A stretch of 64,000 nt of DNA from Ammonifex degensii KC4. GTDB taxonomy: Bacteria > Bacillota > Desulfotomaculia > Desulfotomaculales > Ammonificaceae. Of the stretch, positions 46,419 to 49,489 are shown piece by piece. How positions within the stretch are numbered: the stretch's first letter is position 1; each line of letters opens with the position of its first letter. Under the pieces are notes generated by a model, which saw only the letters and a list, made by a program, of their open reading frames with translations, was not told the origin of the DNA and did not search any database. The translations under genes and the position numbers were made by a program. The stretch spans positions 1,502,175-1,566,174 of the forward strand of contig NC_013385.1 of assembly GCF_000024605.1 (NCBI RefSeq), given 5' to 3'.

Positions 46419-47120
46419 TTACTCCTTTACCGGGTGCGCGTACTCGAACCGGCGACTACCCTTGTAAGCCGATATGGTAACCTCCGGTAGCTTCTTTATG
46501 CTCACCTGGATACCCCAGAACTGTTGCAGGGTATCCACTACGCCTCCTCGCATATTCAGCGCGTTTATCATAGTGTCCGGGTTGCCTATGGCGGTGATGA
46601 CGAAGGGAGCGGCCAACCGCTTCGTCTTGTTCACCAGTATGGTCGGCCCCGCACACCTTACTTCGCTGGTGGCTATCAGCCGCTCGCCGTTTATGGCCAA
46701 AACCTCCGCCCCCGCCGCCTTAAGCTCGTTCAAAACTCGCAGTATGTCTTCGTCGTGCAGCACGTAGAGGTTAGGGTTCTGCCCGGGCTTGGGCATAAGC
46801 GTGCTATCGTTGAGCGTCACCTCTATCCCCGGGCCCGTCACCGCCACCAGCCCTGCCTCGATCCGGTAGGAATTAAGCTCACTCTTGAGTTCTTTCAGCC
46901 CCTCCTGGTTGGTTACCGCATCCAGCTCCTGCTGTAACCGGTTCACTTCGTTCTGCAACTGGTCCCTCTCCTTGCGCGCCGCCTGTACCTCCGCCATTAA
47001 AGTGTTAATGCGCTGGATGGGAACCGTACGGGATATCTCCTGGGCCAGGCGCATTTGCACGGCCACGATCAGTCCCAGGGTCAAGCCTACCAAGAGTAGG
47101 CTTAGGTGAAGTGTGCGCAC
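46419..47120 (-). CDS. DUF881 protein (YlxX/YlxW-like), first copy
   Basis: 233 residues from a GTG at 47120, with GGGGGAG upstream. N-terminal membrane helix (about 5-22), coiled coil (about 43-80) and the DUF881 domain (GPGIEVTLNDS, ILRVLNELKAAGAEVLAING, then ERLIATSEVRC). Shares its domain order and key blocks with the next gene. Its first 116 bp overlap the 3' end of ftsQ in another frame. Confidence 0.92.
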   Translation of the reverse strand: MRTLHLSLLLVGLTLGLIVAVQMRLAQEISRTVPIQRINTLMAEVQAARKERDQLQNEVNRLQQELDAVTNQEGLKELKSELNSYRIEAGLVAVTGPGIEVTLNDSTLMPKPGQNPNLYVLHDEDILRVLNELKAAGAEVLAINGERLIATSEVRCAGPTILVNKTKRLAAPFVITAIGNPDTMINALNMRGGVVDTLQQFWGIQVSIKKLPEVTISAYKGSRRFEYAHPVKE

Positions 47121-47862
47121 TTTGGCGGTCTCCCCCCTTGAAACGTACTACGGGCCGACTCGCTACCTGAAGATCTACATACTCTACTTCCCCCGCCTTG
47201 AGCATGGGGAGAAGGCGGGCCAAGATATCCACCTTCTCCTTTACTTCGGCAGGAGTGCCCAAGTATATCTTAACCCCCTCAGTGGTATAGGCTTCAATCG
47301 TGCGGTCTGAAATATTTAGGTGAATTTCGCCTATCTTCTCCAGAAGGCCGGCCTGTTTTAAGGCAGCCAATAGCCCCTTTAACAGAAAAAACCCGGCGTC
47401 GCTTATCTGCTTTCCCGGCGGCGGTGCTTCTCCCACCCCGGTTAGCACGGGGAAGGGAAGGTCGACCGAGTAGCGGCCCAGGCAGTGCCCGGTGAGGTCC
47501 ACCCCGTAAAAACCATCCTTGCCCGGTAGCAGAGCCACCAGTTCTCTCTCCTTAACCTCTATAAGCACCGTATGGGGAAGTAGCCGTTTCACCTGCGCCT
47601 CGGCAATCTGGGGGAGGGTAGCTACTCTTTGGGCCACTTCCTCCAGGTTCACCTTAAAGATGTTCTCTCCCTGGCGAAGATGCGCTGCCTCAAGTATCTC
47701 CTTCGTCGCCACTTTCTTATTTCCTGCCACTCTTACCTCTTTGATGGAAAAGAGAGAGGAGTTGAGTAGCAAGTAAATACCCAACAAAAGTAAGAGGAGG
47801 AGACTTATCCGCTCCCACCAACCGTACCTTCTCTTCCTCGCCCGCGAGGAAACCGAGAGCAT
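47005..47862 (-). CDS. ftsQ: Cell division protein FtsQ/DivIB
   Basis: 285 residues from the ATG at 47862, behind GGGGGA. Membrane helix at about 16-33, then the POTRA domain (LFSIKEVRVAGNKKVATKEI) and beta domain (AEVEYVDLQ-type end). It holds FtsL/FtsB and controls septal wall synthesis. Odd feature: after VVRFKGGD the frame continues for about 45 residues with no family resemblance, overlapping the DUF881 gene by 116 bp. The TnpB element ends about 20 bp before its start codon. Confidence 0.93.
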   Translation of the reverse strand: MLSVSSRARKRRYGWWERISLLLLLLLGIYLLLNSSLFSIKEVRVAGNKKVATKEILEAAHLRQGENIFKVNLEEVAQRVATLPQIAEAQVKRLLPHTVLIEVKERELVALLPGKDGFYGVDLTGHCLGRYSVDLPFPVLTGVGEAPPPGKQISDAGFFLLKGLLAALKQAGLLEKIGEIHLNISDRTIEAYTTEGVKIYLGTPAEVKEKVDILARLLPMLKAGEVEYVDLQVASRPVVRFKGGDRQSAHTSPKPTLGRLDPGTDRGRANAPGPGDIPYGSHPAH

Positions 47863-47882
47863 AAGGCCTGTCCCCCGTAGGC

Positions 47883-48060
47883 GTGACTTTCTCCCCACCC
47901 CTAAAGGGGTAGGGCTTCCTAGCGGCACGTTCCCCTTTGAAGGTACTGATGCCGGGTCACACCGGTACAAGCGGCCCTTTTGAACCCGTTACCGGGGGGC
48001 CTCCCGGAGGGGACCGTCACTACCGTCCCGACTACTCCAGGTGCCGCTCAAGCGGCCCTT
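47883..48060 (-). ncRNA. Putative omega RNA (reRNA) region
   Basis: TnpB proteins use an RNA derived from the 3' end of their gene and the right end of the element. The region past the tnpB stop is GC-rich and fold-prone: a 9-bp stem with one T.G pair and a TTTA loop lies at 47893-47914. The RNA would continue past the element end, so its guide would come from the ftsQ ribosome binding site. The 5' limit is arbitrary. This rests on family knowledge, not on a visible promoter. Confidence 0.4.
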
Positions 48061-49353
48061 GGAGATACTTGCACAAACCGGTTCAGCCTCCCGTCCCAGC
48101 GCCAGACCCGCACTTCCCTGAAGGCAAAGGGCTCGGCCGGTGCAGCTGCCGAAGAGGTACTGCTTTAAGAGGTTGGCCGCGCCGTTGAGGCCGGCCTGCA
48201 GGACCAGCCCGCACCTCCCGCACACCCACAGGCCCCGGTGCCTCCGCCAGGCGGGGTTGCGGGCACCACAGAGACAGCACGTGGAAGATGTGTTTCTTTC
48301 CGTCCAGGTGTCGGTCTCAATGCCCCGCGTGAGGTTCTTGTAGTGCTGCTCCTGCCGGAGCCGGTCGTAAGCCATCTGGTTGATCTTCTGGCTGGCCTTC
48401 TTGCCCTTCATTCCGGTACGGGCGGAGCGGCGCAGGCCGGTCAGGTCGCCCACCACCGCGAAGGCCACACCCTCTGCTCCGTCCAGCTCCGCGGAGAGCT
48501 TCGTCAATGCGTGCTCCATTTGTCTTATGCGGCGGTCGAGTCTCTTCAACACACGTACCTTCGCGGAAAGACACCTCTTCCACCTGCGGGAGCCTTCCTT
48601 TAGGCGGCTTATCTTTTCCTGGAACCCCGCTATGATTTTGTTCCTGTACTGCACCAGGGAAAGGAGCTCCCGGCACACAAACAGGTCGAGTCGGCCATTG
48701 GATACAGCGCGGGCCACCACAGCAGAGTTGTAATCATAGGCCGAAACGGCACCCGCACGGTAAACGGGCACTACTCCAAGGTCGAGGGTCACGTGGAGCA
48801 CCAGGTTTTCCACCCTGCGGCGGCGGATGACCGCTTTCACCTTGACCTCGACCGGGACGCCCTTCACCTCCGTGCCGTCCGGCAGGACGACCACGTCCCA
48901 CCCTTCGGGCAGCACGACCTCGATAGGCTCCTTCCCGCGTGAGAGCTTCAACACGAGGGTGCTGCCATCGACGTCGAAGCCCTGCCTCTTCCAGGTGACG
49001 GTGCGGAGGTGGTTCTTTGGCTTGAAGCCCGGCGGGTTCATTTCCAGGTGGCCGTTTTCCCTGTGCTTCCGGTAGGCAGACACGGCCTCGAAGTACTCCT
49101 CCACCACCGACTGGGCCGACTGGGAGTGGAGTTCCTTCCACGCGGCGAAGGATTTAAACTTTGTCTTGAGCTCCGCCTCCGTCGGCCAGCGGTCCTCCTG
49201 CTTAAAGATTTCGCGGCTGTGCCAGGCGCAGGAGTTCCAGATGCGGTTTGCCGCCTGCATGACAGGTTGGAAAATCGGTAGCGTTTCCAAGCCCAGCGGG
49301 AACTGTTTGGTCAAAAGGAGCCGGTAAGGATGCGACTTATCGCTCCAGGCCAC
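47989..49353 (-). CDS. tnpB: TnpB-like RNA-guided nuclease homolog with altered RuvC site
   Basis: 454 residues from a GTG at 49353, eight bases after AAGGAGG. The TnpB layout is present: N-terminal domain, RuvC-I (AVSAYDYNSAVVARAV, Asp207), a long helical part, RuvC-II, zinc ribbon (CCLCG...CGRCG, about 359-381) and RuvC-III. In RuvC-II the expected Glu of the -EDL- motif is Gly302 (AVVGDLTGLR), and in RuvC-III the Asp of the D-x-N-AA-N motif is Gly388 (QAGLNGAANL). Two of three catalytic acids are therefore missing at the canonical sites. It could be nuclease-dead, or one of the TnpB variants with relocated catalytic residues. Confidence 0.85.
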   Translation of the reverse strand: MAWSDKSHPYRLLLTKQFPLGLETLPIFQPVMQAANRIWNSCAWHSREIFKQEDRWPTEAELKTKFKSFAAWKELHSQSAQSVVEEYFEAVSAYRKHRENGHLEMNPPGFKPKNHLRTVTWKRQGFDVDGSTLVLKLSRGKEPIEVVLPEGWDVVVLPDGTEVKGVPVEVKVKAVIRRRRVENLVLHVTLDLGVVPVYRAGAVSAYDYNSAVVARAVSNGRLDLFVCRELLSLVQYRNKIIAGFQEKISRLKEGSRRWKRCLSAKVRVLKRLDRRIRQMEHALTKLSAELDGAEGVAFAVVGDLTGLRRSARTGMKGKKASQKINQMAYDRLRQEQHYKNLTRGIETDTWTERNTSSTCCLCGARNPAWRRHRGLWVCGRCGLVLQAGLNGAANLLKQYLFGSCTGRALCLQGSAGLALGREAEPVCASISKGRLSGTWSSRDGSDGPLREAPR

Positions 49354-49432
49354 GTGCTTCACCTCCTTTCTTTCCGGAACATGGCGCCTGAGTTAACTGT
49401 AGCACAAAAACCTGCCCGCCGTGGTCGATCCG

Positions 49433-49452
49433 CCCGCCTTTATGGAGGCGGG
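49433..49452 (-). repeat. Left-end hairpin of the TnpB element
   Basis: cccgcct (49433-49439) pairs with aggcggg (49446-49452) around a 6-nt loop, between the murA stop and tnpB. Imperfect hairpins near both ends are recognised by the Y1 transposase in IS200/IS605 elements. It could also act as a terminator for murA, but the bases after it are not U-rich. Confidence 0.5.
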
Positions 49453-49489
49453 TCTTCTAAGCTTACGGTTTTTATAAAAATAGGCGGCA

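Follow-up and report, generated by a model that had tools for sequence, protein, structure and literature searches.

The tnpB gene between murA and ftsQ of Ammonifex degensii KC4 almost certainly represents an ordinary tnpB-only insertion of the IS200/IS605 type, belonging to a clade in which the RuvC-II glutamate is relocated, and its present copy is inactivated and decaying. We analysed the gene within a window of 64,000 nt (GCF_000024605.1, NC_013385.1, positions 1,502,175-1,566,174, forward strand), whose features are collected in Table 1. As E352 is conserved clade-wide, D388G and a frameshift are private to the window copy, and the element is multicopy, we interpret the locus as an ordinary dying mobile element and not as a new division regulator.

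Table 1. Coordinates of the inserted element, its tnpB gene and adjoining features, in window positions.
Feature	Position	Strand	Remarks
Whole inserted element, IS200/IS605-type, own tnpA absent	47883..49473	minus	1591 bp; sibling-shared ends and uninterrupted A. thiophilus (L073) site
TTTTTAT target and likely TAM, left end	49474..49480	minus	TTAT-type sequence precedes sibling left ends; TTTTTAT of the empty site abuts the flank
Left end with hairpin CCCGCCTCCATAAAGGCGGG	49380..49473	minus	Conserved upstream of sibling copies
tnpB ORF, current reading	47989..49353	minus	454 codons/aa; start GTG 49353, stop 47989; C-terminus frameshifted
Asp207 codon (RuvC-I), kept	48733..48735	minus	Invariant in two homolog alignments
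Gly302 codon, canonical RuvC-II Glu position	48448..48450	minus	Gly throughout the clade
Glu352 codon, putative relocated RuvC-II Glu (ExxxxxxCxxC)	48298..48300	minus	Present in the window copy
Zinc ribbon C359/C362/C378/C381	48211..48279	minus	Cysteines invariant in alignment
Gly388 codon, RuvC-III Asp to Gly	48190..48192	minus	Window copy only
Frameshift by loss of 5 bp (a GAGCC unit) behind codon 408	48125..48135	minus	DNA alignment of copies, C-terminal readings, model
Predicted omegaRNA scaffold and right end, final GTCAC	47883..48062	minus	Right ends of 17 copies, aligned and folded to a consensus
Predicted guide, right-flanking DNA (ftsQ leader)	47863..47882	minus	Copy alignment and empty-site comparison
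ftsQ, likely true start ATG 47862-47860	47005..47862	minus	A. thiophilus homology starts at residue 31 of the 321-aa TTG ORF

The window protein belongs securely to the TnpB family, scoring 121.7 bits against the NCBIfam model guided_TnpB (NF040570, cut-off 100) and above the cut-off of Pfam Cas12f1-like_TNB (PF07282). Structure comparison returned Cas12f and TnpB proteins, with ISDra2 TnpB among the PDB matches (Z ~20). An earlier note on this DNA had numbered the RuvC residues Asp207, Gly302 and Gly388, and had described an intact zinc ribbon, a strong ribosome-binding site and a location inside the dcw cluster. All of this was borne out: the three residues and the four zinc-ribbon cysteines are present at those positions, an intact AGGAGGT serves tnpB, and murA and ftsQ lie on either side. 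Its statement that two of the three RuvC acids are lacking is correct for the canonical positions, but not for the RuvC-II Glu, for which E352 offers an alternative position.

For the RuvC-II motif, we aligned 57 TnpB homologs from A. degensii and related genomes. In 37 of them, Gly at the canonical position is paired with a Glu that lies six residues ahead of the first zinc-ribbon cysteine, in 17 the canonical Glu is paired with Pro, Thr or Arg at the alternative position, and the remaining three end before that position; copies within one genome are related, and these counts are therefore not independent events. The two Glu positions are mutually exclusive with no exception among the 57, and this holds across several lineages, among them a second Gly/Glu lineage (L013-L016) and a canonical one (L025-L030). 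D207, G302 and E352 are invariant in an alignment of 20 sequences of the Gly/Glu type, and Gly302 occurs clade-wide in several genera. In the AlphaFold2 model of the intact sibling L002 (mean pLDDT 87), E352 is placed just after strand 346-351, strand 202-208 has D207 close to its end, and helix 387-401 begins with D388. A relocated RuvC-II glutamate, termed Ealt, has been described for some TnpBs and Fanzors (Yoon et al., PMC10711439), and an active ortholog is known from the RuvC-II-rearranged clade RII-r5 (PMC10278001).

Judged by these alignments and by the topology of the model, the window clade consists of TnpBs with the Ealt arrangement, E352 replacing the canonical RuvC-II Glu. The window copy itself lacks the canonical Glu (G302) and has a Glu six residues ahead of the first CxxC (E352, C359), but departs from the arrangement at RuvC-III, where Gly388 replaces the Asp found in all siblings. 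The earlier suggestion of relocated catalytic residues was thus right for the RuvC-II Glu, as a property of the clade. When the PDB was searched with a profile of Ealt-type proteins alone, the Fanzor2 structure was not recovered, and no residue-level match to a solved Ealt enzyme was obtained. The clade-wide Gly at the canonical position could also be taken to mean that the entire clade is nuclease-dead and retained for another role, which we regard as very improbable, given the invariant Glu at the alternative position that active enzymes use, the conservation of D207 and D388, the purifying selection on the family and its ongoing mobility.

We additionally noted that TnpB homologs of same-order clostridial genomes (L035, L036, L037 and L047) fit the full DPG...ExxxxxxCxxC...CxxC...D pattern, the Fanzor/pro-Fanzor fingerprint given as mostly or exclusively cyanobacterial (Yoon et al., PMC10711439). 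A crude motif search of the short flanks of L035-L037 found no IS607 or Y1 transposase.

Within the 2.16 Mb A. degensii genome, we identified eight near-full copies, namely the window copy and seven others that are 86-89% identical to the window protein, along with fragments. The frame is open in five of the eight, and one has its own Y1 tnpA. Copies in this genome commonly decay, as two siblings have early stops (codon 63 in L006, codon 3 in L007) and others are fragments (L009-L012). At least two other multicopy TnpB lineages occur in the same genome, of which L013-L016 have the alternative and L025-L030 the canonical RuvC-II Glu. Relatives at 57-87% were found in Ammonifex thiophilus, Desulfovirgula, Fervidicola, Hydrogenibacillus and other genomes. 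The window copy falls within the group of A. degensii copies. Between-species dN/dS values of 0.11-0.22 indicate that purifying selection preserves the protein across the family. The window copy has few changes of its own (5 nonsynonymous and 3 synonymous), which point to relaxed selection on it but do not prove it.

All other homologs in which position 388 is present carry Asp there, and Gly is confined to the window copy. An active TnpB in which both the RuvC-II and RuvC-III acids have been relocated would have precedents in the RuvC-II shift of the window clade itself and in the RuvC-III-rearranged clade RIII-r4 (PMC10278001). It is extremely improbable here, since all siblings and relatives keep the Asp at 388, and the private changes of the window copy brought no compensating acid near this position.

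The second private lesion was identified in a DNA alignment with the seven same-genome siblings: the window copy lacks one GAGCC unit behind codon 408, which leaves the last 46 residues (409-454) out of frame, contrary to the earlier description of a reading frame that is otherwise full length. Other open-frame copies end in a conserved C-terminal tail, WRWD/YRWD...N(R/K)(F/Y)...VS.RA; the frameshifted reading runs through the conserved ..VRVWRWDGxxNRFVQVSPRAA(stop) and into the omegaRNA region. In the model of L002 the tail forms a hairpin, with blocks at pLDDT of about 87-93, whereas residues 412-454 of the window copy are modelled as disordered (pLDDT about 26-35), with a pTM of 0.52 against 0.78 in L002. 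With both lesions, the window copy has most likely lost catalysis and is drifting.

The body of the window protein (residues 10-405) retains an open frame and, in the model, its predicted fold. With the ribosome-binding site also intact, the window copy could still bind RNA or DNA. Such a cleavage-dead binder of omegaRNA and DNA might act as a dominant negative against the intact siblings, or silence incoming DNA carrying the empty site, although we give either role only a very slight chance.

In A. thiophilus (L073), the murA-ftsQ interval is uninterrupted, with ...ATATTTTTAT running directly into GCCTGCGGGGGACAGGCCTTATG..., while in the window the same interval reads ...TATTTTTAT, then the 1591-bp element, then GCCTACGGGGGACAGGCCTTATG.... 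The A. thiophilus junction is TTTTTAT followed by GCC, and the insertion after TTTTTAT is scarless, lacking a target duplication. No TnpB match was found at this site in the stretches searched from five further relatives, one of these stretches ending before ftsQ, and among the remaining copies whose flanks could be read, none neighbours murA or ftsQ. The position in the dcw cluster thus reflects one insertion event, and not conserved synteny.

The left ends are common to the copies, each following a TTAT-type sequence, and the right ends finish in ...GGGAGGAAGTCAC, after which the flanking DNA is different in each copy. A Y1 (HUH) TnpA is encoded directly upstream of tnpB in L002, and also accompanies copies in four other genomes (L033, L060, L063 and L067); we found no tnpA with the window copy. 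The IS200/IS605-type assignment draws on the TnpB family match, the scarless insertion by a short motif and the Y1 TnpA within the family, together with a right-end omegaRNA whose guide lies in flanking DNA, the last predicted from sequence and covariation. We also observed that a 321-aa ftsQ ORF with a TTG start begins within the right end of the element (window 47860-47970); automatic annotation could thereby add a false N-terminal extension to FtsQ, for which the A. thiophilus comparison suggests the ATG start.

Across 17 copies, the right ends fold into a common structure of 47 pairs, of which 10 show compensatory changes. This structure contains the subterminal hairpin typical of omegaRNAs, and we predict a conserved omegaRNA at this end. 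Rfam returned only a sub-threshold match to RAGATH-10 (E 0.78), set aside as due to chance. As omegaRNA processing requires RuvC activity (PMC10278001), the loss of D388 may also block guide maturation. We noted that murA, tnpB, the omegaRNA and ftsQ all lie on one strand, and that the guide part of the omegaRNA corresponds to the ftsQ leader including its ribosome-binding site (window 47860-47883), so that any processing at the 3' end of the guide would involve the ftsQ mRNA as well.

The window copy has the adjacent ftsQ leader as its guide, whose own target has been split by the insertion. The genome contains no second exact match to the 16-nt guide, and no other match to the TAM plus 10 nt of guide with fewer than 2 mismatches; the best TAM-included matches have 2 mismatches, about chance by a rough estimate. 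At 2-3 mismatches, the 16-mer matches 65 scattered places in the genome, against 25 in all for a reversed-pattern control; it has no match with a single mismatch.

Besides relocated catalytic residues, the earlier note had left open a second option, a nuclease-dead TnpB repurposed as an RNA-guided regulator, here a TldR-like one of the division cluster. The loss of D388 in a largely open frame and a guide covering the ftsQ leader would fit this option, but we judge it highly unlikely. D388 is lost in only one of many mobile copies, and the Glu has moved rather than been lost, so that inactivating RuvC changes are not conserved across the clade; the C-terminal tail is frameshifted; and siblings located elsewhere carry other guides. 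The murA-ftsQ position is likewise unconserved, with an empty site in A. thiophilus, and no stable non-transposon partner gene was seen among copies with readable flanks. The insertion has split the guide's own target, and no other exact TAM-flanked target for the 16-nt guide exists in the genome. The homolog survey that the earlier note had proposed confirmed Gly302 as conserved clade-wide, but neither Gly388 nor the genomic position. We found another candidate acidic residue, E352, and a gene that moves freely without conserved substitutions, both of which the earlier note had itself named as observations against a regulator. Domestication or division-related regulation of the window copy finds no support, and its guide is simply flanking sequence.

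Under the interpretation as a dying insertion, a tnpB-only element entered the murA-ftsQ interval after TTTTTAT, scarlessly and without target duplication, with a sibling's Y1 TnpA probably acting in trans to mobilise it. In its clade, the RuvC-II Glu appears to have moved to E352, beside the zinc ribbon, and intact members are for this reason expected to be RNA-guided nucleases; the intact siblings would use D207-E352-D388 and a right-end omegaRNA with flanking DNA as guide. The window copy later lost D388 and, through contraction of a 5-bp repeat, its C-terminal tail. Apparent loss of catalytic residues in a TnpB thus needs comparison with siblings and with alternative Glu positions before domestication is claimed. 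To test a relocated-Glu site in a Y1-associated TnpB, the intact siblings of thermophile origin are a reasonable choice, for example L002, which has a Y1 TnpA and a TTAT-type TAM.

Compared with known systems, the element shares with the TnpB of IS200/IS605 (ISDra2 type) the fold, the zinc ribbon, the right-end omegaRNA, the scarless insertion after a short AT-rich motif and, in a sibling element, the Y1 TnpA. It differs in the alternative position of the RuvC-II Glu across the clade and, for the window copy, in being without the RuvC-III Asp, the C-terminal tail and tnpA. With the TldRs, nuclease-dead TnpB-like repressors (PMC13418256), the window copy has in common the loss of at least one RuvC acid; in contrast to them, the element has no clade-conserved loss, stable gene partner or separate guide target, and is still mobile and multicopy. 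Finally, the clade resembles the Ealt/RII-r TnpBs and Fanzors (PMC10711439, PMC10278001) in having no canonical Glu and a Glu six residues before the first CxxC, but its RuvC-I motif reads D-Y/L/I-N where those have D-hydrophobic-G or DPG, and its associated transposase is Y1, rather than IS607.
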